Translations under genes and position numbers: made by a program
Part shown: piece by piece, positions 8,736 through 23,631 of the stretch
Numbering within the stretch: position 1 is the first letter of the stretch
How the letters are laid out: each line of letters opens with the position of its first letter
Assembly (NCBI GenBank): GCA_021325385.1
Contig: JAJPHH010000119.1
Coordinates: 1 to 63,389 of the forward strand
DNA: 63,389 nucleotides
Source: Alphaproteobacteria bacterium
GTDB lineage: Bacteria > Pseudomonadota > Alphaproteobacteria > Rhizobiales > Beijerinckiaceae
Direction of reading: 5' to 3'
Notes under the pieces: model-generated
Databases searched by the model: none
Told to the model about the DNA's origin: nothing
Seen by the model: only the letters and a program-made list of their open reading frames with translations

Positions 8736-9584
8736 GTGTATGCCCGCCCCGCCGAACTCGAAGCTGCACTGGATTTGCTCGCCGAGCCCGGCGCGCGGAT
8801 CCTGGCGGGCGGAACCGATATCTTCCCTGCGGCGGGCGAGAGGCCGCTTGCTGCTCCGCATATTGACGTGACCGGCATCGCCGCGTTGCGCGGCCTGAGT
8901 ATGGCGCCGGACGAGGTGCGGATAGGGGCCGCAATAACCTGGTCTGAACTGGCGAAGGCCGAGCTGCCGGCCGCTTTCGACGCCCTGAAGGCGGCCGCGC
9001 GCGAAGTGGGCGGCGCGCAAATCCAGAATCGCGGCACGATCGCCGGCAATCTTTGTAATGCGTCGCCGGCGGCGGACGGCGTTCCGCCGCTTTTGATCCT
9101 GAACGCCGAGATCGAGATCGCTTCGCGCCGCGGCGCGCGACGACTGCCGATCCGCGACTTCATCACCGGCAATCGCCGCACCGCGCTCGCGCCGGGCGAG
9201 ATCGTGACAGCGATCATCGTCCCGACGCCGCAACCGACCATGCGCGCGAGCTTTCTCAAGCTCGGCGCCCGGCGCTACCTCGTCATCTCGATCGTCATGG
9301 TCGCCGCTTTGCTCGACATCGCGGACGGCGTCGTCCGCGAGGCCCGCGTCGCGGTCGGCGCCTGCTCGGCCGCGGCCAAACGGCTGCCGACGCTGGAGCG
9401 GCGCCTTCTGGGCGTCGCCGCCCACCCCGGCTTGGGCGATCTGGCCGCGTCCGAAGACCTCGCCTTGCTTTCGCCGATCGACGATTTGCGCGCCACCGCC
9501 GAGTACCGCCGCGACGCCGCCCTGACATTGGTCCGTCGCGCGGTCGAAGCGTGTCTCGCCGGCCAAGCCGGAGGGATCGTCTGA
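8736..9584 (+). CDS. molybdenum hydroxylase FAD-binding subunit (xanthine dehydrogenase family)
   Basis: A 282-residue protein of the CoxM/CutM/XdhB type. AGGTDIFP near residue 25 is the first FAD-binding loop and IQNRGTIAGNLCNASPAAD (about 97-115) is the second, followed by the CO-dehydrogenase flavoprotein C-terminal domain. It passes electrons from the iron-sulfur clusters of the partner to the acceptor. The start is GTG at 8736, preceded by GAGGGAGAG; the ATG four bases later is out of frame. The gene is first in an eleven-gene block and its stop overlaps the next start (TGATG). In E. barkeri the equivalent subunit of nicotinate dehydrogenase is NdhF. Confidence 0.9.
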   Translation: MYARPAELEAALDLLAEPGARILAGGTDIFPAAGERPLAAPHIDVTGIAALRGLSMAPDEVRIGAAITWSELAKAELPAAFDALKAAAREVGGAQIQNRGTIAGNLCNASPAADGVPPLLILNAEIEIASRRGARRLPIRDFITGNRRTALAPGEIVTAIIVPTPQPTMRASFLKLGARRYLVISIVMVAALLDIADGVVREARVAVGACSAAAKRLPTLERRLLGVAAHPGLGDLAASEDLALLSPIDDLRATAEYRRDAALTLVRRAVEACLAGQAGGIV

Positions 9585-12346
9585 TGCTCGACCGCGCGGG
9601 CGTCTCGCTCACGCTCAACGGCGCGCCGGCGCGGCTGGCGTCCTCGCCGCTCGATCGGTTGAGCCACGCCCTGCGCGAGGAATGCGGGCTGACCGGCGTC
9701 AAGGTCGGCTGCGACGCCGGCGATTGCGGCGCCTGCACCGTGCTGATCGACGGCGAGCCGGTCTGCGCGTGCCTGACTGCGGTCGGCCAGGTCGAGGGAC
9801 GAGCGATCGAGACGGTCGAGAGCCTGTCGCGCGGCGGAGACGATGTTCGCCGGCTCAAGGCGGCCTTTCACGCGCAGGGCGCGGCGCAATGCGGCGTCTG
9901 CACGCCGGCCATGCTGCTCGCCGCGACCGCGCTGTTGCGCAAGAACGCCCGGCCGAGCGAAATCGACATCGAGGACGCGCTCGGCGGCGTGCTTTGCCGC
10001 TGCACGGGTTATCGCAAGATCATTGAGGCGGTGAAGATCGCGCACAATTTCGATCCCGCGCCCGGCCCCGCCGCTCCTAGGGACGGCGCTGTCGGCCGCC
10101 GCCTCGCCCGGCTCGACGGCGAGCGCAAAATCTCCGGCGCGGAGATTTTCGGCGCGGATGAATGGCCGGCCGGCGCGCTTCTCGCTCGCGTCGTACGTTC
10201 GCCGCATCATCACGCGCGCTTCTTCTTCGGCGATCTCGACGCCTTTCAGCGCGCGCATCCGGGAATCGTCGCGATCTTCACCGCGAAAGACGTGCCGGGC
10301 GAGAACTGCTTCGGCGTGATCGCCCCGTTCGCCGACCAGCCGGCGCTGGCGGAGCGCGCCGCGCGCTTTCGCGGCGAAGCCGTCGCGCTGATCGTCGGCG
10401 AAGACGGGGCGATGCGCGGGCTCGATCTCGCCGCTTTTCCAGTACGATGGGAGCCGCTGCCGGCGCTGATGACGATCGACGAAGCGGCCGCACCCGACGC
10501 AGAGCTGATTCATCCCGGCCGGCCGGGCAATATCCTGACAAGCGGCCGCGTCGCGCGGGGCGATGTCGAGGCCGAGCTCGCCGGAGCCGACATTGTCGTC
10601 GCAGGCGAGTTCGAGACCGGCTTTGTCGAACACGCCTATATCGAGCCTGAAGCCGGCTTCGCCCGCAGAATCGGCGACCGCATTGAAGTCCAAGCGTGCA
10701 CGCAGGCGCCTTATATGGATCGCGACGACGTCGCGAAGATTCTGGGAATCGCGCCCGAGCAGGTGCGGATCGTCCCGAGCGCGGTCGGCGGCGGCTTCGG
10801 CTCGAAGCTCGATCTGTCGGTGCAGCCGTTCATCGCGCTTGCCGCTTGGAAGCTCAACCGGCCGGTGCGGATGATCTATTCGCGCAATGAATCGATCATG
10901 ACCACCACCAAGCGCCATCCGGCGCGCATTCGCGCCAGAGTCGGCGCGATGCGGGACGGCCGGCTGCTCGCCATGGATTTTGCCGCCGACTTCAACACCG
11001 GCGCCTACGCCTCCTGGGGCCCGACCGTCGCCAATCGCGTGCCGGTGCATGCTTCCGGTCCGTACCGCATGCCGCATTACCGCGCGCTGACCCGCGCCAT
11101 CCATACGCATTGCGTGCCGGCCGGCGCGTTTCGCGGCTTCGGCGTGCCGCAGACTGCGATCGCGCAAGAGCAGCTCTATGACGAGCTCGCGCTGAAGCTC
11201 GGCATCGACCGGCTCGAATTTCGCATTCTCAACGCCTTGCAGGCGGGCGACTCGACCGTAACCGGCCAAGTCTTCAAGGACGGCGTCGGCTTCAAGGCCT
11301 GCCTCGAAGCCTTGCGGCCGCGCTGGCGCGAGGCGCTCCAAGCGGCGCGCGCTTTCAACGAGAGCGCAGCCGGCCCAATGCGCCGCGGGGTTGGCGTCGC
11401 CGGCATGTGGTACGGCTGCGGCAACACCTCGCTGCCCAATCCGTCGACCATGCGGCTCGGCCTGACGCCCGACGGCCGCCTGACCTTGTTCCAGGGCGCG
11501 GTCGATATCGGCCAGGGTTCGAACACAGTCATCCCGCAAATATGCGCCGACGCGCTCGGCGCGCCGCTCGACCTGTTCGATCTCGCCTCGGCCGATACGG
11601 ATACGACGCCGGACTGCGGCAAAACCTCCGCCTCGCGCCAGACTTTCGTCTCTGGTAAGGCGGCGTACCTCGCCGGCAGAGCGATGCGGCGCGAGATTCT
11701 GCGCCTCGCCAATGTCGGCGAGGAGGCGACGATCCGTTTCGACGGCGACGCCGTGCTCATCGCCGGTGCCGGCGGCGAGCGCCGGGTCCAACTTCGTACC
11801 TTACCCATCAACAGCGCAGGCTTCGTCGTCGAAGTTCAGGAGACGTTCGATCCGCCGACCTCGCCGCTTGATGAAAACGGCCAGGGCGAGCCCTACGCGG
11901 TCTTCGGCTATGGCGCCCATCTTGCCGAAATCGAGGTCGATGTCGAGCTCGGCCGGGTCAAGGTCCTGCGCCTGACCTGCGCGCATGACGTCGGCAAAGC
12001 GATCAACCCGACGCTGGTCGAAGGTCAGATCGAAGGCGGCGCGGCGCAAGGCCTCGGCCTGGCGCTGATGGAGGAGTTCTTCCCGGGCAAGGGCGAGAAC
12101 CTCCACGACTATCTCATCCCGAGCGTCGGCGACATGCCGCCGGTCGAAAGCATCCTGATCGAGGAGGCTTCGTCGATCGGCCCGTTCGGCGCCAAGGGAA
12201 TCGGCGAGCAGGCCTTGATCCCGACTGCGCCGGCGATCCTCAACGCCATTCATGACGCGACCGGCGCGCGGATCACGCGCGCGCCGGCGACGCCGGACCG
12301 GGTGCGCGCCGCGATCCTTGCTTTGCGAAAGAAAGACCATGACTGA
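9584..12346 (+). CDS. fused [2Fe-2S] and molybdopterin subunit of a xanthine dehydrogenase-family hydroxylase (candidate nicotinate dehydrogenase)
   Basis: A 920-residue fusion. Residues 1-160 are a CoxS-like domain with two [2Fe-2S] sites: Cys43, Cys48, Cys51, Cys63 (plant ferredoxin type) and Cys103, Cys106, Cys138, Cys140. Residues 165-920 are the molybdopterin domain: GGGFGSK, GAFRGFGVP, the IGQGSNT loop and the catalytic glutamate Glu875 in GAKGIGEQAL. The family hydroxylates N-heterocycles or aldehydes with water as the oxygen source. Adjacency to 6-hydroxynicotinate reductase suggests C6 hydroxylation of nicotinate or a close analogue, but specificity is not readable from sequence. The ATG at 9584 overlaps the previous stop; its 3' end overlaps the reductase start by 8 bases. 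Confidence 0.9.
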   Translation: MLDRAGVSLTLNGAPARLASSPLDRLSHALREECGLTGVKVGCDAGDCGACTVLIDGEPVCACLTAVGQVEGRAIETVESLSRGGDDVRRLKAAFHAQGAAQCGVCTPAMLLAATALLRKNARPSEIDIEDALGGVLCRCTGYRKIIEAVKIAHNFDPAPGPAAPRDGAVGRRLARLDGERKISGAEIFGADEWPAGALLARVVRSPHHHARFFFGDLDAFQRAHPGIVAIFTAKDVPGENCFGVIAPFADQPALAERAARFRGEAVALIVGEDGAMRGLDLAAFPVRWEPLPALMTIDEAAAPDAELIHPGRPGNILTSGRVARGDVEAELAGADIVVAGEFETGFVEHAYIEPEAGFARRIGDRIEVQACTQAPYMDRDDVAKILGIAPEQVRIVPSAVGGGFGSKLDLSVQPFIALAAWKLNRPVRMIYSRNESIMTTTKRHPARIRARVGAMRDGRLLAMDFAADFNTGAYASWGPTVANRVPVHASGPYRMPHYRALTRAIHTHCVPAGAFRGFGVPQTAIAQEQLYDELALKLGIDRLEFRILNALQAGDSTVTGQVFKDGVGFKACLEALRPRWREALQAARAFNESAAGPMRRGVGVAGMWYGCGNTSLPNPSTMRLGLTPDGRLTLFQGAVDIGQGSNTVIPQICADALGAPLDLFDLASADTDTTPDCGKTSASRQTFVSGKAAYLAGRAMRREILRLANVGEEATIRFDGDAVLIAGAGGERRVQLRTLPINSAGFVVEVQETFDPPTSPLDENGQGEPYAVFGYGAHLAEIEVDVELGRVKVLRLTCAHDVGKAINPTLVEGQIEGGAAQGLGLALMEEFFPGKGENLHDYLIPSVGDMPPVESILIEEASSIGPFGAKGIGEQALIPTAPAILNAIHDATGARITRAPATPDRVRAAILALRKKDHD

Positions 12347-13787
12347 CGCCGACGGCAAGATCCGCTGCGACGCCTGTCCCGTCCTCTGCTACATCCGCGA
12401 GGGCATGACCGGCGCCTGCGACCGCTACGCCAACCGCAACGGCGAACTGGTCCGCGTCGATCCGCATATCCTGCTCGAACGTACGGTGAGCGACGGCGGC
12501 GAGGTCGTGCCCTTCGCGGCCCAAACGCAGGAATGGAGCGGCGACATCGTCAACGCGCCGGCGCCTTTCGTCACCGCAATCGGCGCCGGGACGACGTACC
12601 CTGACTACAAACCGGCGCCGTTCATCGTCTCCTCGAAAGTCGACGGGGTCGATATGGTGACGGTCGTCACCGAGGGCATCTACTCCTATTGCGGCGTCAA
12701 GCTGAAGATCGACACCGACCGCCATCTCGGCGCGGAATGCGCCACCGTGCGCGCGCAGGGCGAACCGGTCGGGCACGTGACCACCGGCGAATACGGTTCG
12801 CAAATGCTGTCGCTCGGCGGCGTCAATCACCTGACCCATAGCGGCAAGAAAGAGGGCCGCGTCACCTGCGAGACTTTGCTCGATCTCTGCAACCGCAAGC
12901 CAGTCGAGCTGACCGTCGACGGCGGCGCGACGATTCTCGTCCAGGCCGGCAAGCCGCCGATCGTCAACGGCCAAAGCGAAGAGCGCATGCGGGTCGGCTG
13001 CGGCTCGGCCACGATCGGCATGTTCGCCAAACAATGGTACGGCAAGGTCGACGAGGTCGTGGTCGTCGACGACCACATTACCGGCGTGCTCTCCGAGCAC
13101 CAGGCCGGCAAACTACTCGGCGCGAGGGACACCGGCGTCAAGATGAAAGGCCGGCGCTCGACGCCGGGCCGCTATTTCCATGTCGCCGAGCCGGGAACCG
13201 GCTGGGGCGGCGCAAACATTTCCGACCCGCTCGACATCATCGCCGGCTTCGATCCGAAAGTCGCCTGGCCCGGCCTCACCCTGCTGATGGTCTCGACCAC
13301 CGGCGAGCAGCACGCCTTCTATCGTCTCGACGAAACGTTGCGGCCCGTGCAGGAGCCGCTGCCTGACAACCTGCGCGTCTCGGTCGAGCGCATCCGCGAG
13401 AATTGCGAGCCGGCTTTGTGCTCGGTTCTTTTCATGGCCGGCGCCGGCGGCTCGCTGCGCGCCGGCGTCACGGAAAATCCCGTGCGCTTGACGCGCTCGG
13501 TGCGGCAGGCCTTGACGACGGTCACCGCCGGCGGCGCGCCGGTCGTGATCTGGCCGGGCGGCGGCATCACCTTCATGGTCGACGTGACGCTCCTGCCCGA
13601 CAACGCCTTCGGCTATGTGCCGACGCCGGCGATCGTCGCGCCGATCGAGTTCACCATGCGGCTGGAGGATTACGCCGCTTTGGGCGGCCATGTCGATCAT
13701 GTTCGGCCTTTGCGCGACATTGTCGAGACGCACGCCAAACGGCAAACGAGCGGCGCCGCAACTGCGCCGCTGCGGAGACAGGCGTGA
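12339..13787 (+). CDS. hnr: 6-hydroxynicotinate reductase homologue (ferredoxin-linked, Fe-S flavoprotein)
   Basis: A 482-residue protein that I recognise as the Hnr family. Known Hnr (EC 1.3.7.1) of Eubacterium barkeri reduces 6-hydroxynicotinate to 1,4,5,6-tetrahydro-6-oxonicotinate with ferredoxin and contains several Fe-S clusters and a covalently bound flavin. Here four N-terminal cysteines (Cys10, Cys13, Cys17, Cys27) form a cluster-binding site; further cysteines occur in YSYCGVK, ECATV, CETLLDLC and VGCGSA. The middle part resembles the FrhB/coenzyme F420 hydrogenase beta-like Fe-S flavoproteins only loosely. The C-terminal tail carries TSGAAT (470-475), faintly like an ApbE flavinylation motif. 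The ATG at 12339 overlaps the Mo-subunit gene; the end overlaps the UPF0280 GTG start. Confidence 0.85.
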   Translation: MTDADGKIRCDACPVLCYIREGMTGACDRYANRNGELVRVDPHILLERTVSDGGEVVPFAAQTQEWSGDIVNAPAPFVTAIGAGTTYPDYKPAPFIVSSKVDGVDMVTVVTEGIYSYCGVKLKIDTDRHLGAECATVRAQGEPVGHVTTGEYGSQMLSLGGVNHLTHSGKKEGRVTCETLLDLCNRKPVELTVDGGATILVQAGKPPIVNGQSEERMRVGCGSATIGMFAKQWYGKVDEVVVVDDHITGVLSEHQAGKLLGARDTGVKMKGRRSTPGRYFHVAEPGTGWGGANISDPLDIIAGFDPKVAWPGLTLLMVSTTGEQHAFYRLDETLRPVQEPLPDNLRVSVERIRENCEPALCSVLFMAGAGGSLRAGVTENPVRLTRSVRQALTTVTAGGAPVVIWPGGGITFMVDVTLLPDNAFGYVPTPAIVAPIEFTMRLEDYAALGGHVDHVRPLRDIVETHAKRQTSGAATAPLRRQA

Positions 13788-14764
13788 GAGCGCCGCCGCA
13801 AGTTCAGCGCTTCGGCGACGGCCGGCTGCATCTGCAGGACGGGCCGATCGACCTGATCATCGAAGCGTTCGGCGCCGAGGACGCAATCGAACTCGCCTAT
13901 GCGGCGGCGTGGCGACGCTTCCAGACCGTGCTCGACGAGCTCTGCGCCGAATTGCCGCTGCTCCGGGCCGCGGCGCGACCCGGGGCCTCTCGCCCAGCCG
14001 GCGTCGTGGCCCGACGCATGGCGGCGGCGGTCGCGCCGTTTAGCGCAACCCGTTTCATCACGCCGATGGCGGCGGTCGCCGGCGCGGTGGCCGAGGAGAT
14101 TCTTCAGGCGATGACCGACGCTGCGCCCCTACGCCGCGCTTACGTGAACAATGGCGGCGACATCGCGCTGCATCTTATGCCGAACGAGCAATTTTCGATC
14201 GGGATGGTCGATCGGCCGGATAGGCCGAGCCTCATCGGCGCGGCGACGATCGCAGCGCGTCATCCGGTGCGCGGCGTTGCGACGTCCGGCTGGCGCGGGC
14301 GCAGCTTCTCGCTCGGCATAGCCGACGCCGTCACCATTCTGGCTCGGACGGCCGCCGCGGCCGACGCTGCGGCGACGCTGGTCGCCAACGCCGTCGACCT
14401 TCCTGGACATCCGGCGATTGATCGCGCGCCGGCCTCGTCGCGCGATCCGCAAAGCGATCTCGGCGAGCGGCTCGTGACGATCGCAGTCGGCGCGCTGACG
14501 CCGGCGGAGATCGACGAAGCGCTGGCGCGCGGCGTGGCCGAGGCGAAGCGGCTTAAAACCCTCGGCGCGATCGAGGCCGCCGCCTTGCGGCTCTGTGGCG
14601 AAACGCGGCTTTGCGGCGTCGAGGCGAGGCTGTACAACGGCGCGAAGGAAGGGTTGCGAGCGAAGCGAAACAGTCCAGGAAACACCGGCGATTCCTGGAT
14701 GCTTCGTCGCTTCGCTCCTCGCAATGACGTCGTGAAGAAGAGCAAGCGCCATGCCGTCGGTTGA
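13784..14764 (+). CDS. UPF0280 family protein (ApbE-like superfamily)
   Basis: A 326-residue protein matching UPF0280, a family placed in the ApbE-like superfamily. Visible family segments are the N-terminal GPIDLIIEA, FITPMAAVAGAVAEEI and YVNNGGDIALHL, then GVATSGWRGRSFSLGIADAVTILA. Function is unproven; FMN transfer is a reasonable hypothesis because ApbE proteins attach FMN covalently and the partner reductase family carries covalent flavin. The GTG at 13784 overlaps the reductase stop (GTGA). The last 35-40 codons are not family sequence: they run through a family-B palindromic repeat (14652-14728) and end in RRFAPRND..., so the native C terminus has been replaced or extended by repeat insertion. 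The end overlaps the next start by 14 bases. Confidence 0.85.
   Translation: MRAPPQVQRFGDGRLHLQDGPIDLIIEAFGAEDAIELAYAAAWRRFQTVLDELCAELPLLRAAARPGASRPAGVVARRMAAAVAPFSATRFITPMAAVAGAVAEEILQAMTDAAPLRRAYVNNGGDIALHLMPNEQFSIGMVDRPDRPSLIGAATIAARHPVRGVATSGWRGRSFSLGIADAVTILARTAAAADAAATLVANAVDLPGHPAIDRAPASSRDPQSDLGERLVTIAVGALTPAEIDEALARGVAEAKRLKTLGAIEAAALRLCGETRLCGVEARLYNGAKEGLRAKRNSPGNTGDSWMLRRFAPRNDVVKKSKRHAVG
14652..14728. repeat. palindromic repeat family B, copy 2, inside a coding end
   Basis: Arms GTTGCGAGCGAAGCGAAAC and GCTTCGTCGCTTCGCTCCTC with ends TTGCGAG and CGCAATGAC. It overlaps the 3' part of the UPF0280 gene and ends about 20 bases before the next start codon. Confidence 0.8.
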
Positions 14765-15335
14765 GGAACGCAAGCGTGTCGTCTCGGTCGAAGAGATCTA
14801 TCACGAAGGCGGCCCCGTTGCGGCGAAGCCTTATCGCCGCGCGTCCATTCTCTCGGTCATCAAAAACCCGTTCGCCGGGCGCTACGTCGAGGATATCGTC
14901 GGCTTCTCGGACGACTTGAAGCCGCTCGGCCTCGGTATGGCGCGGGCGCTGATCGCCGCGCTAGGCGGCGATCCCAAAGCGATCGAAGGCTATGGCAAGG
15001 GCGCGATCGTCGGCGCCGCCGGCGAGATCGAGCATGGCGCGCTTTGGCATGTCCCCGGCGGCTACGCCATGCGCGAAGCGCTGGGCGGGGCCAAGGCGAT
15101 CGTGCCTTCGGCGAAGAAGGTCGCTGGTCCCGGCGCGCGGCTCGACGTGCCGATCACGCATATCAACGCCTCGTACGTGCGCAGCCATTTCGACGCGGTC
15201 GAGATCGGGGTCGTCGACGCGCCGCGCGCCGACGAAATCCTGCTCGCGCTCGCCATGACCACAGGTCCGCGCGTGCACAACCGCGCCGGCGGCCTCAAAG
15301 CGTCGGAGATCAAGGGAGTGGACGGGCTCCGATGA
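14751..15335 (+). CDS. 'amino acid synthesis' family protein, paralogue 1
   Basis: A 194-residue protein of the Pfam AA_synth family (named from distant annotation; its reaction is unknown). Characteristic segments are SVIKNPFAGRYVEDI, IEGYGKGAIVGAAGEIEHGA, the Lys/Ser-rich IVPSAKKVAGPG loop, HINASYVRSHFDA and a final GLKASEIKGVDGLR. The next gene is a paralogue with the same landmarks and exactly the same length, overlapping by 4 bases (ATGA), so the products probably act together, perhaps as a heteromer. In this operon the pair sits between the reductase/UPF0280 genes and the importer, which suggests a role in handling the ring compound or its products. That is inference from context. Confidence 0.85.
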   Translation: MPSVEERKRVVSVEEIYHEGGPVAAKPYRRASILSVIKNPFAGRYVEDIVGFSDDLKPLGLGMARALIAALGGDPKAIEGYGKGAIVGAAGEIEHGALWHVPGGYAMREALGGAKAIVPSAKKVAGPGARLDVPITHINASYVRSHFDAVEIGVVDAPRADEILLALAMTTGPRVHNRAGGLKASEIKGVDGLR

Positions 15336-15916
15336 AAGCCAAAATCCGCAAGCTCGTCACCGTTCTCGAAGAAACGCGCGCCGAGATGGACCGCGCCGTC
15401 GATCCGCCGACGCGGCGCGCCGCCGCCATCGCGGTGATCGAAAATCCATTCGCCGGCGGCTATGTCGAGGACCTTTCCGAATTGATCGACATCGGCGAGG
15501 AGCTCGGCGAATTGCTGGCGAGCCGCGCCGTCGCCGCGCTCGGCATCGAAGGATCGGCGGCGGAGAGCTACGGCAAAGCCGCGGCGGTCGGCGAAAACGG
15601 CGAGCTCGAACATGCGGCGGCGATCTTGCAGCCCAAACTCGGCGCGCCCGTGCGCAAGGCGCTCGGCAAGGGCGCGGCGCTGATCCCGTCATCGAAGAAG
15701 CGCGGCGGACCGGGCGTCCCGCTTGATATTCCGCTCGGCCATAAGGACGCGGCGTTCGTGCGCAGCCATTTCGACGGCATGGAGGTGAGGGTTTCAGACG
15801 CGCCCCGCGCGAACGAGATCGTCGTCGCGGTGGCGGTGACGGATTCGGGTCGGCCCCTGCCGCGCGTAGGCGGCTTGAAGAAGGACGAGATCAAGGGCGA
15901 AGACGGGCTGCGGTGA
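15332..15916 (+). CDS. 'amino acid synthesis' family protein, paralogue 2
   Basis: Also 194 residues and a clear paralogue of the preceding gene product: VIENPFAGGYVEDL, ESYGKAAAVGENGELEHAA, IPSSKKRGGPG, HKDAAFVRSHFDG and LKKDEIKGEDGLR align with it. The N terminus (KIRKLVTVLEETRAEMD) is the form usual for single-copy family members. It also has APRANEIVVAVAVTDSGRP, matching APRADEILLALAMTTGPR in the partner. Conserved Lys-Lys-x-Gly-Gly-Pro-Gly and Arg-Ser-His-Phe-Asp suggest the active region. The start overlaps the upstream stop as ATGA, so translation is coupled. The reaction is unknown. A family-A palindrome follows. Confidence 0.85.
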   Translation: MKAKIRKLVTVLEETRAEMDRAVDPPTRRAAAIAVIENPFAGGYVEDLSELIDIGEELGELLASRAVAALGIEGSAAESYGKAAAVGENGELEHAAAILQPKLGAPVRKALGKGAALIPSSKKRGGPGVPLDIPLGHKDAAFVRSHFDGMEVRVSDAPRANEIVVAVAVTDSGRPLPRVGGLKKDEIKGEDGLR

Positions 15917-15928
15917 GTTCCGGTTTGT

Positions 15929-16080: not shown

Positions 16081-17289
16081 ATGAAGAGTTTGTCCGCCGC
16101 GCTCTACGCGCTGGGCCTGATCGCGGCTTCGGCCTCATTTGGCGCGCCTGCTTCGGCCGAAGACACGATCAAAATCGGCGAGATCAATTCCTATTCCGGC
16201 CTGCCGGCCTTTACCGAGCCGTACCGCAAAGGCTGGCAATTGGCGCTGGACGAGATCAACGCCGCCGGCGGGGTCGACGGCAAGAAGCTGGAAGTGATCT
16301 CGAAGGACGACGGCGGCAAGCCGGCCGAGGCGGTGACCGCCGCCAACGAGCTCGTCTCGAGGGACGGCGTCGTCATGCTGGCCGGCACGTTCTTCTCCAA
16401 TATCGGCCTCGCCGTCTCCGACTTCGCCAAGCAAAAGAAAATTCTCTTCCTCGCCGCCGAGCCGCTGACCGACGCAATCACCTGGTCCAAGGGCAATCGC
16501 TATACATTCCGCCTGAGGCCCGCCAATTACGAGCAGGCCGGCATGTTGGCCGAGGAAGCCGCCAAACTGCCGGCAAAGAAATGGGCGACCATCGCGCCGA
16601 ACTACGAATACGGCCAGTCCGCGGTCGCCGCGTTCAAAAAGCTGCTCTCGGCCAAACGGCAGGACGTGCAATGGATAGGCGAGCAATGGCCGCCGCAAGG
16701 CAAGATCGACGCCGGCGCCGTGGTCGAGGCTATCGCCAAGACCGAACCCGACGCGATCCTCAATGTCGAGTTCGGCCCCGACCTCGTCAAGCTGGTGCGC
16801 GAAGGCGAGACGCGCGGCTTGTTCAAAGGCCGCTCGGTGGTGAGCTTCCTGACCGGCGAGCCCGAATATCTCGACCCGTTGAAGGATGAAACGCCCGTCG
16901 GCTGGATCGTCACCGGCTATCCCTGGAACGACGTCTCCATCCCTGAACACGCCGCCTTCTTGAAAGCGTACCAGGCGAAGTACAACGATTACCCGAGACT
17001 CGGCTCGGTCGTCGGCTATTCGACCTTGAAGGCCGCAGCCGCCATCCTGGCCAAGGCCAAGTCCACGGACAGCGAAAAGCTGGTCGACGCCGCGGAAGGG
17101 ATCGAGGTCGAGACGCCGTTTGGCAAGGTCACGTTCCGCAAGGCCGATCATCAATCGACCCTCGGCGCTTTTGTCGGCAAGACCGCGCTGAAAGACGGCA
17201 AGGGCGTGATGGTCGACGCCGAGTACCGCGACGGCGCGAAATACCTGCCGCCGGAGGATGAAGTAAAGGCGCTGAGGCCGCAGGATTGA
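16081..17289 (+). CDS. ABC importer substrate-binding protein (branched-chain amino acid / LivJ type)
   Basis: A 402-residue periplasmic protein with a signal peptide (residues 1-24, ending ASA) and the Peripla_BP_6 fold: IKIGEINSYSG at the mature N terminus, ALDEINAAGGVDGKKLEVI, and paired lobes to the end. The family binds branched-chain amino acids, amides, urea or aromatic acids; here the operon suggests the N-heterocyclic growth substrate such as nicotinate, which is inference. The ATG at 16081 is preceded by GGAGGGAG. Longer upstream reading (from 15985) only translates the palindromic repeat and was rejected. The permease and both ATPase genes follow. Confidence 0.92.
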   Translation: MKSLSAALYALGLIAASASFGAPASAEDTIKIGEINSYSGLPAFTEPYRKGWQLALDEINAAGGVDGKKLEVISKDDGGKPAEAVTAANELVSRDGVVMLAGTFFSNIGLAVSDFAKQKKILFLAAEPLTDAITWSKGNRYTFRLRPANYEQAGMLAEEAAKLPAKKWATIAPNYEYGQSAVAAFKKLLSAKRQDVQWIGEQWPPQGKIDAGAVVEAIAKTEPDAILNVEFGPDLVKLVREGETRGLFKGRSVVSFLTGEPEYLDPLKDETPVGWIVTGYPWNDVSIPEHAAFLKAYQAKYNDYPRLGSVVGYSTLKAAAAILAKAKSTDSEKLVDAAEGIEVETPFGKVTFRKADHQSTLGAFVGKTALKDGKGVMVDAEYRDGAKYLPPEDEVKALRPQD

Positions 17290-17307
17290 TGGCGTACGCG
17301 GCGCCCC

Positions 17308-17500
17308 TATCCTCCCCCGCGAACCGGGGGAGGGGGACCATGCGAAGCATGGTGGAGGGGGCTCAGCTCCATCAGGACTATCCTGAACCACCGGAAGCCC
17401 CCTCCACCGGCCTTCGGCCGGTCCCCCTCCCCCGTTTCGCTGCGCTCCACGGGGGAGCACAAAGGTGGTCTATCCTCCCCCGCTATGCGGGGGAGGAAGG
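17308..17500. repeat. palindromic repeat family C, composite
   Basis: A complex inverted-repeat block: CTCCCCCGC...GGGGGAGGGGGACCATGC, then GCATGGTGGAGGGGGCT, answered by AGCCCCCTCCACCGGCC...GGTCCCCCTCCCCCG and a last CTCCCCCGC/GCGGGGGAG hairpin at 17474-17494. It fills the gap between the binding-protein and permease genes. The final arm supplies the GGGGGAGGAAGG that serves as ribosome binding site for the permease gene. Confidence 0.8.
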
Positions 17501-17509
17501 TACGCTATA

Positions 17510-19366
17510 GTGACCTTCTTTCTCGTTCAATTCGTCACGGGCCTCGCCAGCGCCTCATCGCTGTTTCTCGCGGCTTGCGGCCTGTCGATCATTTTCGGCG
17601 TCACCCGCGTCGTCAATTTCGCCCATGGCGCCTTCTATATGCTCGGCGCCTACCTCGCCTTCACGCTCGCCAGCCGGCTCGCGGGCGATGTCGGCTTCTG
17701 GGCGGGAATTATCCTGGCGTCGCTGGCCGTGGCGGCGATCGGCGCGTTGATCGAGATGGCGCTGCTGCGCCGCCTCTACAGCGCGCCGGAGCTGCTGCAA
17801 TTGCTCGCGACTTTCGGCGTCACGCTCGCGGTCGAAGACATCGCGCTGCTGATCTGGGGGCCGGAGGACTTGCTCGGCCCGCGCGCGCCCGGCTTCAAAG
17901 GCGCCGTCAATCTCCTCGGCCAAGCGTTTCCGACCTACGATCTTCTCCTCATCGCGTTGGGGCCGCTGGTCCTCGCGCTGCTCTGGCTGCTGTTCCGCCG
18001 CACGCGCTGGGGCGTGCTGGTGCGCGCGGCGACGCTCGATCGCGAGATGGTCGCGGCGCTCGGCGTCAATCAGAAATGGCTGTTCACCAGCGTCTTCGCG
18101 CTCGGCGTCTTTCTCGCGGCGCTCGGCGGCGCGTTGGAGTTGCCGCGCGAGGCGGTGAGCCATACGCTGGATCTGCAGATCATCACCGAAGTCCTGGTCG
18201 TCGTGGTGATCGGCGGGCTCGGCAATGTGCTCGGCACGTTTCTCGCCGCCATCATCGTCGCCGAACTCAACGCGTTCGGCATTCTGATCTTTCCCAAAAT
18301 CTCGATCGTCTTGGTTTTCTTGGTCATGGCCTTGGTGCTGATCGTCAGGCCATGGGGATTGCTCGGCCGGGCGGAGGCGGCGGCGCGGATGGCGGGCGGC
18401 GCCTCGCTGGCGCGCTGGCGTCCGTTCGATAAGCGCGGCCGCCTGCTTGCCGCGCTCGCCGTAGCCGCCGCCGCGCTGTTCCCGTTCTTCGCCGGCGATT
18501 ACGCGCTAAGCGTCGCGACGGAAGTCCTGATCTTCATGCTTTACGCGGCGAGTCTGCACGCCCTGGTCGGCGCCGGCGGCCTCGTTTCGTTCGGCCACGC
18601 CGCCTATTTCGGCCTCGGCGCGTACGGAGCGTCCCTCGCCTTGAAGCAACTCGGCCTGCCGATGGAGGCGGCGCTCGTCGCCGGCCCGGTCCTCGGCTTT
18701 GCCGGCGCGCTCCTCTTCGGCTGGTTTTCGGTGCGCCTTTCCGGCGTCTATTTCGCCATGCTGACCCTCGCCTTCGCCCAGATCGCCTGGTCCATCGCCT
18801 TCCAATGGAGCGAAGTCACCGGCGGCGACAACGGCCTCATTGGCGTCTGGCCAAGCGCTTGGGCGGAAAGTCCGGCGCATTTCTATTGGCTGGCTCTCGC
18901 GCTCGCCGCTTTGGCGATCGCGCTGCTGCGCGTCATCGTCTTCTCGCCCTTCGGCTACGCGCTCCGCGCCTTGCGCGACAGCGAATTGCGCGCCGAGGCG
19001 ATCGGACTCGACCGCCATCGCCTGCAATGGATCGGCTTCGCCGTCGCAGGCGCTTTCGCCGCGCTCGCCGGCGCGCTGTTCGCCTTTCTCAAAGGCAGCG
19101 TCTTTCCCGACACGCTCGGCATTCCGCTGTCGATCGACGGTTTGGTCATGGTCTTGCTCGGCGGCGTCGGCACGGTCTCTGGCGGCGCGCTCGGCGCGCT
19201 GCTCTACAAGACGTTGTCGATCTGGGTTATCAGCGAGACGGATTACTCCAAGCTGGTCCTCGGCTTGCTCATCGTCGCGCTGGTCGCGCTGTTCCCGCAA
19301 GGGCTGCTCGGCGCCGTCCAAGCCTGGCGCGGCCGAGATGCGCGCTTGCAAGGCGCGACGCCATGA
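17510..19366 (+). CDS. ABC importer permease, LivH-LivM fusion
   Basis: A 618-residue inner-membrane protein joining two usually separate permeases. Residues 1-290 are LivH-like (GLSIIFGVTRVVNFAHGAFYM) and residues 305-618 are LivM-like (GLVSFGHAAYFGLGAYGASL, then VYFAMLTLAFAQI). The junction near residue 290-310 is a short basic cytoplasmic loop. Such fusions occur in the family and form the membrane channel with the two ATPases that follow. The start is GTG at 17510, chosen because the AT-poor stretch before it is repeat family C and GGAGGAAGG lies at the right distance; no ATG is near. The end overlaps the next gene by 4 bases. Confidence 0.9.
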   Translation: MTFFLVQFVTGLASASSLFLAACGLSIIFGVTRVVNFAHGAFYMLGAYLAFTLASRLAGDVGFWAGIILASLAVAAIGALIEMALLRRLYSAPELLQLLATFGVTLAVEDIALLIWGPEDLLGPRAPGFKGAVNLLGQAFPTYDLLLIALGPLVLALLWLLFRRTRWGVLVRAATLDREMVAALGVNQKWLFTSVFALGVFLAALGGALELPREAVSHTLDLQIITEVLVVVVIGGLGNVLGTFLAAIIVAELNAFGILIFPKISIVLVFLVMALVLIVRPWGLLGRAEAAARMAGGASLARWRPFDKRGRLLAALAVAAAALFPFFAGDYALSVATEVLIFMLYAASLHALVGAGGLVSFGHAAYFGLGAYGASLALKQLGLPMEAALVAGPVLGFAGALLFGWFSVRLSGVYFAMLTLAFAQIAWSIAFQWSEVTGGDNGLIGVWPSAWAESPAHFYWLALALAALAIALLRVIVFSPFGYALRALRDSELRAEAIGLDRHRLQWIGFAVAGAFAALAGALFAFLKGSVFPDTLGIPLSIDGLVMVLLGGVGTVSGGALGALLYKTLSIWVISETDYSKLVLGLLIVALVALFPQGLLGAVQAWRGRDARLQGATP

Positions 19367-20124
19367 AAGTTCTCGCCGTCGAAAATCTCGGCAAGACCTA
19401 TTCCGGCTTCGAGGCGGTCAAGGCGGTGAGCTTTTCGCTCCAAGCCGGCGAAATCCTGGCCCTGATCGGCCCGAACGGCGCCGGCAAGAGCACCTGTTTC
19501 AACATGATCAATGGCCAGGTCACGCCGAGCCGCGGCGCGATCGAGATATTCGGCCGCAACGTCGTCGGGCTGACGCCGCGCGCCATCTGGCGGCTCGGGG
19601 TCGGCCGCACTTTCCAAGTCGCCGCGGCTTTCGCCTCGATGTCGGTCGCCGAGAACGTGCAAATCGCGCTGCTGTCGCATCATCGCCGGCAATGGCGCCT
19701 CGCCGGCTGGGCGGCGCGCTTTTATGTGGACGAGGCGGCGTCCTTGCTGTCGCTCGTCGGCATGAAGGAGCAGGCCAAGCGAAGCTGCGGCGAGCTCGCC
19801 TATGGCGATCTCAAGCGCCTCGAATTCGCGCTCGCTTTGGCGAACGAGCCAAGATTGCTGCTGATGGACGAACCGACGGCCGGCATGGCGCCGAAGGAGC
19901 GCGGCGCGTTGATGGCCCTCGTCGCGAAAATCGCACGGGAGCGCAAGATCGGCGTGCTCTTCACCGAGCACGACATGGACGCGGTCTTCGCTTACGCCGA
20001 TCGCATCCTGGTGCTCAATCGCGGCGCGCTGATCGCCGAAGGGCCGCCCGCCGCGGTGAGGGCCGATCCGGATGTGCAAGCGGTCTATCTCGGCGCCGGG
20101 ACCTTGTACGGAGCCGCGTCTTGA
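19363..20124 (+). CDS. ABC importer ATP-binding protein, LivG type
   Basis: 253 residues. Walker A is GPNGAGKS near 34-41, the signature is the divergent CGELAYGDLKR, Walker B is LLLMDEP with a following TAGM, and the switch His is in LFTEHDMD. The GVGRTFQ segment after Walker A is typical for LivG. It energises uptake together with the LivF-type partner. The ATG overlaps the permease stop (ATGA), and its own stop overlaps the TTG start of the next gene. Confidence 0.93.
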   Translation: MKVLAVENLGKTYSGFEAVKAVSFSLQAGEILALIGPNGAGKSTCFNMINGQVTPSRGAIEIFGRNVVGLTPRAIWRLGVGRTFQVAAAFASMSVAENVQIALLSHHRRQWRLAGWAARFYVDEAASLLSLVGMKEQAKRSCGELAYGDLKRLEFALALANEPRLLLMDEPTAGMAPKERGALMALVAKIARERKIGVLFTEHDMDAVFAYADRILVLNRGALIAEGPPAAVRADPDVQAVYLGAGTLYGAAS

Positions 20125-20837
20125 GCGCGCCTGCCAAGCTCAGCGTCAAGGATCTGAACGCCGCCTATGGCCGCGCGCATATCCTGTTCGACGTCTCCCT
20201 TGAGGTCGCCGCCGGCGAAGCCGTGGCGCTGATTGGCCGCAACGGCGCCGGCAAGTCGACGACCTTCCGCGCGATCCTCGGCTTCGTCGCCAATCGCAGC
20301 GGCGAAATCCGATTCGACGGCGCCGACCTCTCCCGCCTCGCGCCGCATGACATCGCCCGGCGCGGCCTCGGCTATGTGCCGGAGGACCGGCGGATTTTCG
20401 CCGATCTTTCGGTTGAAGAGAATCTCGAAGTCGGCCGCCAGAAACAGCGCCCGGGCGCGCCGCGATGGACCACGGAGCGCCTGTTCGAAATCTTCCCCAA
20501 TCTGGCGGAGACCCGCGCGAGGCTTGGCGGCCGCCTCTCGGGCGGCGAACAGCAAATGCTCGCCATCGCCCGCACGCTGATGGGCAATCCGTCTTTGGTC
20601 CTGCTCGACGAGCCGTCGGAGGGGCTCGCCCCGAAAATCGTCGAGCAGATGATCGCGGCGATCCTCGAAATGAAGCGCGAGGGCTTGAGCCTGCTGGTCA
20701 GCGAGCAGAACCTCAACTTCGCCCAGCTGGTCGCCGATCGCGTCGCGGTGATCGAGAAGGGTCGCATTCGGTTTGCAGGTACGATGGCCGAATTCGATGC
20801 GCGGCCAGACATCCGCGACGCTTACCTTGCGCTGTAA
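20121..20837 (+). CDS. ABC importer ATP-binding protein, LivF type
   Basis: 238 residues with Walker A GRNGAGKS, the LivF-typical GYVPEDRRIFADLSVEENL, signature LSGGEQQ, Walker B LVLLDEP and a switch region (VSEQN, with Gln-Asn instead of His, usual for LivF). The only start that keeps the whole N-terminal strand (LSVKDLNAAYGRAHIL) is a TTG at 20121 inside TTGA overlapping the livG-type stop. A rare TTG start with coupling suggests a reduced translation rate. It completes the importer. Confidence 0.92.
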   Translation: MSAPAKLSVKDLNAAYGRAHILFDVSLEVAAGEAVALIGRNGAGKSTTFRAILGFVANRSGEIRFDGADLSRLAPHDIARRGLGYVPEDRRIFADLSVEENLEVGRQKQRPGAPRWTTERLFEIFPNLAETRARLGGRLSGGEQQMLAIARTLMGNPSLVLLDEPSEGLAPKIVEQMIAAILEMKREGLSLLVSEQNLNFAQLVADRVAVIEKGRIRFAGTMAEFDARPDIRDAYLAL

Positions 20838-20844
20838 GACCTTT

Positions 20845-20927
20845 GTCATTCCCGCGGAAGCGGGAATCCAGTACGGCCTATCCGGCAAGCGCCGACGCTC
20901 CTGGATTCCCGCTTGCGCGGGAATGAC
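20845..20927. repeat. palindromic repeat family A, copy 3
   Basis: Left arm 20845-20871 (GTCATTCCCGCGGAAGCGGG form), right arm 20901-20927. It lies eight bases after the importer operon's last stop and just ahead of the MarR gene, and is followed by TTTTTT at 20935-20940, so it may also act as a partial terminator. Confidence 0.88.
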
Positions 20928-20948
20928 ACTGAGGTTTTTTAAGAAGCC

Positions 20949-21398
20949 GTGGCGGATATTATGAGCGATGAAGAGCCAAAGGACCCAGGGAGATACGTCC
21001 TCGACGCGCAGGTCGGCTTCGTTCTGCGTCAGGCGCAACAGCGGCACACGACGATCTTCGCCTCGCTCATGGTCGAAGGCCTGACGCCGACGCAATGGGC
21101 CGCGCTGGCCAAACTCAAGGAGATCGGCCCGTCGTCGCAGAATTTGCTCGGCCGTCACACCGCCATGGACGCCGCGACGATCAAGGGCGTCATCGACCGG
21201 CTCTCGAAAAGAGGCTTCACGGCGACGAAACCTGACCCAGCCGACGGGCGGCGCCTTCTCGTGACGTTGACGGCGGAGGGCGAGGCGCTGTACGACAAGG
21301 CGGCGCCGACCGCCAGGCGGATCACCGAGGAGACGTTGGCGCCGCTGAACGAAGGCGAGAGGGCGCAATTCATCGCCCTGTTGTCGCGGCTGACCTGA
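20949..21398 (+). CDS. MarR-family regulator, NicR/BpsR/HosA-like
   Basis: A 149-residue winged-helix protein. The N-terminal helix VGFVLRQAQQRHTTIFA and GLTPTQWAALAKL match the NicR/BpsR/HosA branch of MarR, whose known members sense hydroxylated aromatic or pyridine acids (BpsR and NicR respond to 6-hydroxynicotinate). The wing is DPADGRRLLVTLTAEG, with Asp-x-Arg typical for MarR DNA contact. The start is GTG at 20949, or ATG at 20961 four codons on. The gene is last in the block whose promoter carries the TTTGTATACAAA palindrome, so it probably represses that operon and the enamidase gene and is relieved by a pathway intermediate. That regulatory link is inference. Confidence 0.88.
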   Translation: MADIMSDEEPKDPGRYVLDAQVGFVLRQAQQRHTTIFASLMVEGLTPTQWAALAKLKEIGPSSQNLLGRHTAMDAATIKGVIDRLSKRGFTATKPDPADGRRLLVTLTAEGEALYDKAAPTARRITEETLAPLNEGERAQFIALLSRLT

Positions 21399-21410
21399 GG
21401 GCAGCCCGTA

Positions 21411-21959
21411 TCATGGTTGGGCGCTCTTGAGCCGAACCATGATCAAATCGAACCCCGTCGCCGTCCCGGATTCCGTGCGGAACGCTCGTTTTCCGCAAAG
21501 CTTGAAGTCGCGCCGCTCATAAAAACGGCGCGCGGAGACATTTTCCTCCCATACGTCCAAAAAGATGCGTCGAGCGGCGGCGGACGCCGGAATTCGCAAG
21601 GCGGCTTCGAGCAAGGCCCCGCCGACGCCTTGGCCTTGGCGTTGCTTCAGAACATAGATCCGGCGCAGTTCCTGATCATCGCGCCCGATCCCGAAAGGGT
21701 AATCTTCCGCTTTAGCTGGCCCAATCTGGGCGAACCCGATCATTTCAGCCGGCGACTGGGCGATCAGAAAGACGTCTTCCCGCAGGAATTCGGCAAAACG
21801 CTCGTCGGACAGGTTCTTCTTGAGATGGGCTTTCAGATCAGACGCGCTGAAGGAGCGCCCGAAAGCGTCGACATAGGTTTTCCGCGCCAACGCGGCGAGC
21901 GGTTCGAGGTCGCTTGCGACGGCGCGCCTGATCCCAATCTCCGTCTTGTCGGGAACCAT
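21411..21959 (-). CDS. GNAT-family N-acetyltransferase
   Basis: 182 residues. The acetyl-CoA binding motif A is RIYVLKQRQGQGVGGALLEAAL, with the Q-x-x-G-x-G pyrophosphate loop (QGQGVGG), and the C-terminal strand VWEENVSARRFYERRDF with the conserved NxxARxFYE follows. The N-terminal IRRAVASDLEPLAALARKTY is the usual alpha1 region. The substrate cannot be predicted. It starts 32 bases after clpS and is probably cotranscribed with it. The ATG at 21959 is the first that keeps the fold; longer readings overlap clpS out of frame. Confidence 0.85.
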   Translation of the reverse strand: MVPDKTEIGIRRAVASDLEPLAALARKTYVDAFGRSFSASDLKAHLKKNLSDERFAEFLREDVFLIAQSPAEMIGFAQIGPAKAEDYPFGIGRDDQELRRIYVLKQRQGQGVGGALLEAALRIPASAAARRIFLDVWEENVSARRFYERRDFKLCGKRAFRTESGTATGFDLIMVRLKSAQP

Positions 21960-21991
21960 GTCGATACTCGCGCCGCCGGGGCGGTCGCCGC

Positions 21992-22297
21992 CTACTCCTC
22001 GGGCTCGGTCGTGAACATCAGTGGATAGCCCTTGGCCCGGCCGGCCTCCGTCGCCCGCGTCGCCTTGGTCTCGGCGATGTCTTTCGCGAAGACCGCAACG
22101 ACGCAGGCGCCCTTGCGATGGGCGGTCATCATCACGGCATAGGCGCGGGCCTCGTTCATGCGGAATTCGGCCTTGAGAATCGTGACGACGAATTCGCGCG
22201 GCGTGTAATCGTCGTTGAGCAGGATGACCTTGTGCAGCTTCGGCCGCTCGGTCTTCGGTTTGGTCCGGGTTCGCGGTTTCGTGGCGATGTCGCTCAT
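21992..22297 (-). CDS. clpS: ATP-dependent Clp protease adaptor ClpS
   Basis: 101 residues. The core KVILLNDDYTPREFVVTIL contains the N-degron-binding Asn-Asp pair, followed by AYAVMMTAHRKGACVVAVFAKDIAETK, the standard ClpS fold. ClpS hands N-end-rule substrates to ClpAP in the cytoplasm. The N-terminal 20 residues are a basic, disordered extension that inserts into the ClpA pore. The ATG at 22297 is chosen because the family begins here; the long upstream reading in this frame has no similarity. clpA is not adjacent in this window. Confidence 0.95.
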   Translation of the reverse strand: MSDIATKPRTRTKPKTERPKLHKVILLNDDYTPREFVVTILKAEFRMNEARAYAVMMTAHRKGACVVAVFAKDIAETKATRATEAGRAKGYPLMFTTEPEE

Positions 22298-22434
22298 CGG
22301 CGGCGCTTTCGGCGATCGAATGTGACGCTTCGAGAGCGCCAAAATCCCATATTCGCCGCCGCCCGTCCATGCGGCGGCGCGGCGGCCGCATGCCGGCTCA
22401 AGATTCCTTGAGGAAACGTTAAGCAGCCGCCGCC

Positions 22435-23631
22435 CTACCCCGTGACGACGCTCGGCACCCGCGTCGCCGGCGGGGTGTTGCGGCTGCGCTGCGAGCGCAC
22501 GATCCCGTCGATCACGGTCATGCCGACGCCGGGCAAATCGCCCAGCGCGACGCTTTCGAGCAGCGTCCTTCCGGCGGAATGTTGGGCGCGGTCGAGGAAG
22601 ACGAAATCGGCGGCGCGGCCGACCTCGATCAGGCCGCAATCCAGCGCCCGCATCCGCGCCGTGTTGCCGGTGGCGAAACACACGGCGATTTCCGCCGGAA
22701 CTTCGCCGAGCGAGGCCAGCAGCGAAATCATCCGCAAGATGCCGAGCGGCTGCACGCCGGACCCGGCCGGCGCGTCGGTGCCGAGTATGACCCGATCGAG
22801 CTGGTTCAGCTCCTTGGCCGCGCGCAACGTGACGAGCGCGGCGCGCTCATTGCCGTTATGGACGAGCTCCAAGCCGCGTTTGCATTGCTCGCAGAGGCAG
22901 CGGATTTGATCATCCGGCAGGGCGGTGTGGCCGCCATTGATATGGCCGATCACGTCCGTATCGGCCTCGAGCACAATGTCCTTGTCGATCAGGCCCGAAC
23001 CGGGAATGGACGGCCCGCCCGTATGGATGGTGGAGTTGATCCCGTATTTACGCGCCCAGGCGACCATTTTGCGCGCGGTCGGGCCGTCCTTGACGCCGCC
23101 CAGGCCGACTTCGCCGAGATAGCGGATGCCGGCTTGGGCGAGTTCGGCGAAATCCTTCTCCTCGAGGCCCGGCTCGATCACCGGCGCGCCGGCGTGAACT
23201 TTGACGCCGCTGGCGCGGAAGGAGGAGAAGCAGCGCTGGGCGTAAATCGCCATGGCCTTGACGCCGACGACGTCGCGCGGCCGGCCGGGCGTGTGGACCT
23301 CGCCGGCCGAGATCATCGTGGTGACCCCGCCATGCAGGCAGGAATCGATCCAGCCGAGCTGGTTCTGGCGCGGCGTCCAGTCGCCGGCGACGGGATGGAC
23401 ATGGCTGTCGATCAGGCCGGGCGCGAGCGTAACGCCATTGGCGTCGATCACGGTCGTCGCGCCGGAAAGGTCGAGGTCGGCGGCGCGGCCGATGGCGCTG
23501 ATCCGGCCGTCAATCGCAACCAAGGCGTCGGCGTCGAGGATCGGGGTTGCAAGATCGCCGCTCAGCATGAGCCCGATATTCCTGACGACCAATTTGCTCG
23601 GGCCGGCCGCGGCCGCTTCCTCGTGAGCCAT
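22435..23631 (-). CDS. ena: enamidase-like amidohydrolase (tetrahydro-6-oxonicotinate hydrolase)
   Basis: A 398-residue metal-dependent amidohydrolase. His77 and His79 (DSHVHP) are the first metal ligands; further ligands are expected in GEVGLGGVKDG (Glu), INSTIHTGG (His), VIGHINGGHT (His) and the catalytic Asp in GTDAPAGSG. The sequence resembles enamidase of E. barkeri, a bifunctional Fe-Zn enzyme that opens 1,4,5,6-tetrahydro-6-oxonicotinate to ammonia and 2-formylglutarate, and the length is close to that enzyme. It is the expected next step after the reductase at 12339-13787. Its upstream region holds the same 15-bp operator-like motif as the operon promoter. Confidence 0.85.
   Translation of the reverse strand: MAHEEAAAAGPSKLVVRNIGLMLSGDLATPILDADALVAIDGRISAIGRAADLDLSGATTVIDANGVTLAPGLIDSHVHPVAGDWTPRQNQLGWIDSCLHGGVTTMISAGEVHTPGRPRDVVGVKAMAIYAQRCFSSFRASGVKVHAGAPVIEPGLEEKDFAELAQAGIRYLGEVGLGGVKDGPTARKMVAWARKYGINSTIHTGGPSIPGSGLIDKDIVLEADTDVIGHINGGHTALPDDQIRCLCEQCKRGLELVHNGNERAALVTLRAAKELNQLDRVILGTDAPAGSGVQPLGILRMISLLASLGEVPAEIAVCFATGNTARMRALDCGLIEVGRAADFVFLDRAQHSAGRTLLESVALGDLPGVGMTVIDGIVRSQRSRNTPPATRVPSVVTG

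Follow-up and report, generated by a model that had tools for sequence, protein, structure and literature searches.

What would genes of the kind that the anaerobe Eubacterium barkeri uses to ferment nicotinate do in an alphaproteobacterium? The question is raised by contig JAJPHH010000119.1 (63,389 nucleotides, hereafter the window) of a member of the Beijerinckiaceae (assembly GCA_021325385.1), in which a first-pass annotation had placed a molybdenum hydroxylase, a 6-hydroxynicotinate reductase (HNR), and an enamidase together in one region. All three are present as intact reading frames with domain, E. barkeri, and Protein Data Bank (PDB) matches, and the window very probably carries a reductive nicotinate catabolic cluster that would lead from nicotinate to ring opening. 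In a tree, the hydroxylase falls together with nicotinate dehydrogenase (Ndh) of E. barkeri; HNR and enamidase are homologues of characterised proteins; and three of the four positions at which BpsR contacts 6-hydroxynicotinate are conserved in the regulator. The annotation had cited Azorhizobium as the closest precedent for a reductive route, and a published account (PMC3511419) indeed reports this cluster from Azorhizobium and Bradyrhizobiaceae and includes data on the growth of strain SG-6C; its occurrence in aerobic Alphaproteobacteria is hence less surprising. The route itself is already known from an anaerobe and some soil bacteria, and the newer elements here are comparisons of UPF0280, of enamidase and HyuAB (an ATP-dependent hydantoinase/oxoprolinase pair), and of DUF1185 across 289 genomes.

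In the scheme that follows, we infer enzyme activities, electron donor, effector, and downstream fate, set against gene identities, relatives, residue conservation, and co-occurrence that were observed directly. Nicotinate would be taken up by an ABC importer and converted by a hydroxylase with Mo, FAD, and [2Fe-2S] centers to 6-hydroxynicotinate, which HNR would reduce to 1,4,5,6-tetrahydro-6-oxonicotinate (THON), with electrons probably passing from NADPH through a ferredoxin-NADP reductase (FNR) to a ferredoxin. Enamidase would open the THON lactam to give 2-formylglutarate and ammonia, and 2-formylglutarate would most likely continue to glutarate. HNR is predicted to require a UPF0280 protein, most likely for a covalent flavin; AAs2, one of two proteins of family PF06684 (DUF1185), may assist ring opening and deamination, perhaps by handling an enamine or imine; and 6-hydroxynicotinate would lift repression by a MarR protein. 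The UPF0280 gene, both PF06684 genes, and the FNR gene had gone unmentioned in the first-pass annotation, and relatives show that the first three belong to the system.

Identity and distribution of HNR

Neither Pfam nor NCBIfam has a family that matches window HNR at E ≤ 0.001, and the PDB offers no chain with an E value under 0.6; the protein was therefore identified through the E. barkeri locus (L090), to which a search with the solved enamidase had led. In that cluster, a UPF0280 gene directly follows an HNR gene whose product is 41% identical to that of the window. Six cysteines (C10, C13, C17, C27, C221, and C356) are invariant in all 57 HNR sequences compared; the fold was modelled with AlphaFold2 (pLDDT 82, pTM 0.79), and resemblance to a GCV_T C-terminal barrel showed only faintly.

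HNR was found in 44 of 289 sampled alphaproteobacterial genomes, that of the window (G000) included. Four further genomes among the 48 that matched (G053, G059, G078, and G181) were dropped because only ~35 N-terminal residues match. The survey tool scores the best few first-look candidates per genome, and absences reported here are valid at that depth. A quick IQ-TREE phylogeny was built from 57 sequences after 6 of 63 matches, including G028 and G231, had been dropped for shortness, and 11 of its 54 inner branches remain open. The annotation had suggested surveying HNR neighborhoods for co-occurrence of dehydrogenase and enamidase: 41 alphaproteobacterial HNR-linked Mo subunits lie in one group, and 18 of the 44 HNR genomes carry a close enamidase. 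Among open reading frames outside the reference set, only two families of conserved downstream genes near HNR reached four loci.

Two observations at individual HNR loci deserve mention. In G028 (L083, 8512 to 10271), whose cluster is otherwise of the HyuA type, HNR lies in two overlapping frames, an apparent frameshift that is either real or due to sequencing. At several loci (L035, L038, L039, L042, L043, and L059; e.g., L039:4743-6206 and L038:6122-7531), the neighbor of an alternative importer with a split permease is a protein of 470 to 490 amino acids. Its Neorhizobium copy had no Pfam match, and the protein did not turn up in the window's first 26 kb.

Nicotinate as the likely substrate

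A tree of 60 Mo subunits (FastTree, midpoint root) places the 41 HNR-linked alphaproteobacterial sequences and 10 others on one side of a branch with support of 99. Those 10 come from nine Bacillota loci and one deltaproteobacterial locus, and E. barkeri NdhL/NdhM is in the group; unlinked paralogues and NicB fall outside it, on long branches that make their placement unsure. The phylogenetic check that the annotation had named as capable of refuting its substrate thus puts the window hydroxylase with E. barkeri nicotinate dehydrogenase. NicAB-like hydroxylases occur near HNR in three of eight plasmid loci (Neorhizobium and La 6, in both of which the depositors used the names nicA/nicB, and Comamonadaceae), the eight having been fetched from 26 plasmid records with HNR. 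Their large chains carry Mo and cytochrome c domains, which we take to be the mark of NicB.

The regulator, annotated as a NicR/BpsR/HosA-like MarR protein, is BpsR-like, with best PDB matches to 2nnn (4e-39) and BpsR (6pcp, 1.4e-26). BpsR contacts 6-hydroxynicotinate through Tyr15, His23, Arg26, and His32, and Pseudomonas putida NicR lacks these residues, according to the structural report (PMC6837509). At the corresponding positions the window protein has Y16, F24, R27, and H33. Across 30 MarR relatives (E ≤ 1e-15, from the fetched loci, window included), the contact Tyr and Arg are present in all 30, His at the last contact in 18, and His at the second in 6. The window MarR therefore probably responds to 6-hydroxynicotinate. 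Given this regulator and the grouping of the hydroxylase with the E. barkeri enzyme, nicotinate is the likely substrate. Strain SG-6C, whose genome contains this cluster, mineralised nicotinate and 6-hydroxynicotinate (PMC3511419).

A gene for a VanA-type Rieske oxygenase lies inside several HNR clusters (L034:15526-16596, L037, L047 to L049, L065, L067, L069, and L071) and perhaps feeds substituted nicotinates into the route.

UPF0280 as a candidate maturation factor for HNR

A UPF0280 homologue (E ≤ 1e-10) was present in all 44 HNR genomes and in none of the 245 others (Fisher 4e-53, a statistic that ignores relatedness). Against the Pfam ApbE model (cut-off, 25.6 bits), the E. barkeri UPF0280 protein scored 29.5 and the window protein 16.6, and in a weak alignment the GGD, TSG, and ADAxxT motifs of the two families align in part. 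In 2006, Alhapel et al. reportedly described E. barkeri HNR with a covalently bound flavin. Because UPF0280 is ApbE-like and the E. barkeri flavin is said to be covalent, we propose that UPF0280 is a dedicated HNR maturation factor, most likely for covalent flavin, and hold this with less confidence than the route itself.

Predicted ring opening by enamidase or HyuAB

Residues H77, H79, H203, H230, and D286 are found in 31 of 31 enamidase sequences and E174 in 29 of 31; from the amidohydrolase family, we take these to be metal ligands. Of the 289 genomes, 19 have a close enamidase (at least 69% identity), and all of these except G082 (18 genomes) also carry HNR. HyuA, defined as a similarity group (at least 55% identity to the Sagittula protein) rather than from a HyuA tree, occurs in 28 of 289 genomes, 25 with HNR (exceptions G114, G217, and G095), and four further genomes without HNR have it at 51 to 53% (G011, G120, G182, and G224). 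Among the 44 HNR genomes, 18 have enamidase only, 25 HyuA only, none both, and one neither (G226, 70% complete). Identity gaps separate these classes, from 69 to 45% for enamidase and from 55 to 51% for HyuA, where the 51% protein is a second copy in G122. Distant enamidase relatives are present in 2 of the 25 HyuA genomes (G104 at 42% and G064, a fragment at 38%), and other HyuA paralogues (≤46%) in 14 of the 18 enamidase genomes; HyuA lies within the stretch fetched around HNR in 16 of 25.

The enamidase/HyuA label changes nine times on the HNR tree, at least four to five of these changes being forced by strong branches; labels for plasmid and Bacillota rows come from the fetched stretch only. 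The alternation is therefore not the habit of a single lineage. OplAB, of the same family as HyuAB, opens the six-membered delta-valerolactam (PMC11033972), and since THON is likewise a six-membered lactam, it is chemically plausible that HyuAB replaces enamidase as its opener. Enamidase used as a marker of the route would miss 26 of the 44 sampled alphaproteobacterial HNR genomes.

PF06684 proteins beside enamidase and HNR

In E. barkeri, the gene directly after enamidase encodes a PF06684 protein that shares 56% identity with AAs2, and the AAs2 subfamily is common to the window, E. barkeri, and a deltaproteobacterium. All 19 genomes with a close enamidase have AAs2 at 69% identity or more; among the 25 HyuA genomes, three have it at 57 to 68% (G080, G195, and G104) and the others nothing over 52%. 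AAs1 forms a separate tree group of 36 rows, 20 from HyuA and 16 from enamidase genomes. Two DUF1185 structures have been solved, and the fold gives no function, since at E ≤ 0.001 a search with the AA_synth fold recovered only members of that family (three chains), all further matches having TM scores of ~0.3 or lower.

One DUF1185 homologue is TgnF of trigonelline degradation; for another, HcdD of the coumarin pathway, efforts to demonstrate a stimulating effect were unsuccessful (PMC7913881). We considered DUF1185 as a formylglutarate decarboxylase and set this aside, since E. barkeri also has AAs2 yet reduces formylglutarate. Trigonelline degradation also releases an enamine. AAs2 perhaps aids the ring-opening and deamination step by handling the enamine or imine, a role that we regard as less secure than the route.

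Elsewhere in the genome of the window, a second, distant enamidase-like gene (45%) adjoins a PF06684 gene (46%) at G000:C32:57634-59368 (L089). No HNR lies within the 20 kb fetched there, and the pair perhaps serves another N-heterocycle pathway.

Probable electron supply and downstream route

At E ≤ 1e-10, the genome has no second match besides the window FNR; the enzyme therefore likely serves general metabolism as well, and as the sole match it gives no support to the idea of an FNR dedicated to the cluster. In five of the eight plasmid loci (Sagittula, Pseudosulfitobacter, Sulfitobacter mediterraneus, Comamonadaceae, and Neorhizobium), HNR has an FNR gene no more than 12 kb away.

The annotation had noted that the E. 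barkeri steps after formylglutarate are missing from the window, and this appears to extend to the genome (98% complete), in which 2-methyleneglutarate mutase finds only partial matches (32 to 34% identity over ~125 to 160 of 620 residues). The query was the protein at L090:11837-13696, presumably the mutase by its place in the E. barkeri cluster. With the mutase matched only in part, 2-formylglutarate would most likely proceed to glutarate, the route reported for Azorhizobium (PMC3511419).

Weighing the alternatives

Several results weigh against the reductive nicotinate reading or its parts. HNR identity to the E. barkeri protein is just 41%, and a fold search with its model returned no PDB match at E ≤ 0.001. 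At the position of BpsR contact His23 (His in 6 of 30 relatives) the window has Phe, and 12 of the 30 carry Ala or Asn at the last contact. In SG-6C, no metabolite beyond 6-hydroxynicotinate was detected (PMC3511419). FNR was found in none of 49 other annotated whole-genome stretches, some short or without HNR, and it may simply be a housekeeping gene. ApbE catalysis uses a His (PMC12052999), and among 28 UPF0280 sequences no His is invariant or close to it; the stretch that holds the ApbE His, between TSG and the Asp/Thr site, is ~18 residues shorter in UPF0280, by a weak alignment. The core [ST]G[AS][ST] of the ApbE target motif (D-x-x-[ST]-G-A-[ST]) occurs in none of 57 HNR sequences, and T225 in the HNR motif GCGSAT was ruled out as a general ApbE flavinylation site, being Ala in 8 of 57. 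Finally, AAs2 is not exclusive to enamidase, since it is found in four of six HyuAB plasmid loci (Neorhizobium, La 6, Sagittula, and Pseudosulfitobacter).

The same chemistry might act on another N-heterocyclic acid, such as a different pyridine carboxylate or a nicotinate bearing substituents, in which case HNR and enamidase would work on the matching cyclic enamide. The substrate is deduced from homology alone, and the distant enamidase-AA_synth pair on G000:C32 suggests that these families serve other pathways too. We nevertheless consider this improbable, as the grouping of the hydroxylase, the BpsR-type contacts, the NicAB-like enzymes at plasmid loci, and the growth of SG-6C on nicotinate (PMC3511419) all speak against it. 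Less probable still is that the complete E. barkeri fermentation, through methyleneglutarate mutase to pyruvate and propionate, is encoded elsewhere in the genome: the first three enzymes are common to both organisms, yet mutase matches are partial in a nearly complete genome, and Azorhizobium is reported to go by way of glutarate (PMC3511419). It is also unlikely, if somewhat less so than a different substrate, that the UPF0280 and DUF1185 proteins are operon passengers concerned with transport, storage, or general stress and not tied to the chemistry of HNR or enamidase. Both lack an assigned function, DUF1185 is also present in 17 of the 245 genomes that lack HNR, and 5 of the 44 HNR genomes do not have it (no PF06684 match in G066, G184, G196, G233, or G281). 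Of nine distant enamidase genes (≤45%), four have a PF06684 neighbor (G000:C32, G060, G202, and G210:C1) and five do not (G104:C5, G185:C104, G210:C15, G064:C450, judged by contig, and the second of G279:C50). The passenger explanation is opposed by the exact coincidence of UPF0280 with the 44 HNR genomes, its position after HNR in E. barkeri, and the presence of AAs2 in every close-enamidase genome.

Returning to the reductive nicotinate route, we tentatively suggest, at somewhat short of even confidence for the whole combination, that it is a modular cassette with three previously unrecognised parts. In this joint proposal, UPF0280 would be a non-canonical flavin transferase that loads HNR at a site unlike the ApbE motif, ATP-dependent HyuAB would replace enamidase in most sampled alphaproteobacterial HNR genomes, and DUF1185 would act on the enamine or imine of ring opening, which would fit TgnF too. 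In the open-licence literature, a scope that makes absence weak evidence, we found no paper linking UPF0280 with flavin, none joining HNR with enamidase, and none combining nicotinate, 6-hydroxynicotinate, and hydantoinase; nor did titles or abstract starts among the matches listed connect nicotinate dehydrogenase with hydantoinase/oxoprolinase. Taken alone, the window is one further genome with an anaerobe-type pathway in aerobic use, a use that has been published but little studied. The comparison would make three families testable: UPF0280, DUF1185, and one hydantoinase/oxoprolinase group that can now be tied to a specific lactam.

Gene arrangement and genomic setting

All cluster genes from the FAD subunit through MarR run in the same direction (Table 1), and the importer called complete in the annotation does comprise a substrate-binding protein, a fused permease, and two ATPases (16081 to 20837). 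Enamidase is on the opposite strand, behind a GNAT gene (by Pfam) and a ClpS gene (by eye), and divergent from FNR.

Table 1. Genes of the putative reductive nicotinate cluster and adjoining FNR; all named genes are intact reading frames
Gene product	Position	Strand	Basis
Nicotinate dehydrogenase, FAD subunit	8736..9584	+	PF00941 3.5e-44, PF03450 8.2e-16
Nicotinate dehydrogenase, fused [2Fe-2S] and molybdopterin subunit	9551..12346 (start maybe ATG at 9584)	+	PF02738 (MoCoBD_1) 1.6e-74, Fer2_2 1.8e-23, PF20256, PF01799
6-Hydroxynicotinate reductase (HNR)	12339..13787	+	41% identity to HNR of E. barkeri cluster
UPF0280 protein, distantly related to ApbE; candidate maturation (flavin) factor for HNR	13784..14764	+	NF003322 ("hypothetical protein" model), above cut-off
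AAs1, PF06684 (DUF1185, "AA_synth") protein, HNR-side subfamily	14751..15335	+	PF06684 6.4e-70; tree
AAs2, PF06684 (DUF1185) protein, enamidase-side subfamily	15332..15916	+	PF06684 1.1e-72; PDB 2qtp 1.9e-87
ABC importer, substrate-binding protein	16081..17289	+	PF13458 1.2e-69
Fused LivH/LivM-type permease	17465..19366	+	Open reading frame; homologues in HNR loci
ABC ATPase 1 (start inferred)	19363..20124	+	Open reading frame; homologues in HNR loci
ABC ATPase 2 (start inferred)	20118..20837	+	Open reading frame; homologues in HNR loci
MarR regulator, BpsR type	20949..21398	+	BpsR 6pcp 1.4e-26
Enamidase	22435..23631	-	PDB 2vun 3.7e-107
Ferredoxin-NADP reductase (FNR), probable electron supply	23722..24636	+	NF008178 2.4e-50, below its cut-off

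The region had also been described as an island, a claim for which we found no support: GC content stays between 0.62 and 0.69 in 3-kb steps, a scan of the window found no tRNA, and no integrase or transposase was among 20 flanking proteins scanned, with further open reading frames outside that scan and direct repeats not searched. Flanking neighbors include SmpB, a DapA-family protein, and SecY. Since HNR is missing from all three sampled genomes of the same family, gain of the cluster in this lineage is possible.

Two other genes in the window were noted. A protein of 219 amino acids, encoded at positions 5866 to 6525 (+), shows Gly/Ala/Val-rich repeats to the eye; Pfam assigned it no family at E ≤ 1e-5. 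Positions 27895 to 30114 (-), where GC is slightly lower (0.618), encode a 740-amino-acid MmeI-like DNA methyltransferase/target-recognition protein (MmeI_Mtase, 6e-29), possibly part of a restriction-modification gene.

Comparison with known systems

The clusters of Azorhizobium caulinodans, Bradyrhizobium japonicum, Rhodopseudomonas palustris HaA2, and SG-6C showed no difference in kind from that of the window, with gene order outside the comparison (PMC3511419). In the window, enamidase stands apart on the minus strand, behind the GNAT and ClpS genes and adjoining FNR. With the E. barkeri cluster (enamidase 2vun, nicotinate dehydrogenase 3hrd), the window has in common nicotinate dehydrogenase, HNR, UPF0280, enamidase, and AAs2. 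The hydroxylase differs in having a fused [2Fe-2S]-Mo chain where E. barkeri has split chains; AAs1, the ABC importer, and the BpsR-type regulator were not seen in the E. barkeri locus, and the E. barkeri mutase is matched only partially in the genome of the window. The regulator belongs with BpsR of Bordetella to the MarR family and has three of its four contacts to 6-hydroxynicotinate, and differs in Phe24 for contact His23 and in its placement in a reductive cluster. UPF0280 is linked to ApbE flavin transferases by remote homology and partly aligned motifs, and differs from them in having no conserved His; its proposed partner HNR has no canonical target motif. Finally, the HyuAB pair that would stand in for enamidase belongs to the family of the ATP-dependent lactamases OplAB and caprolactamase CapAB; it is found at the loci of relatives rather than in the window, where enamidase would open THON.

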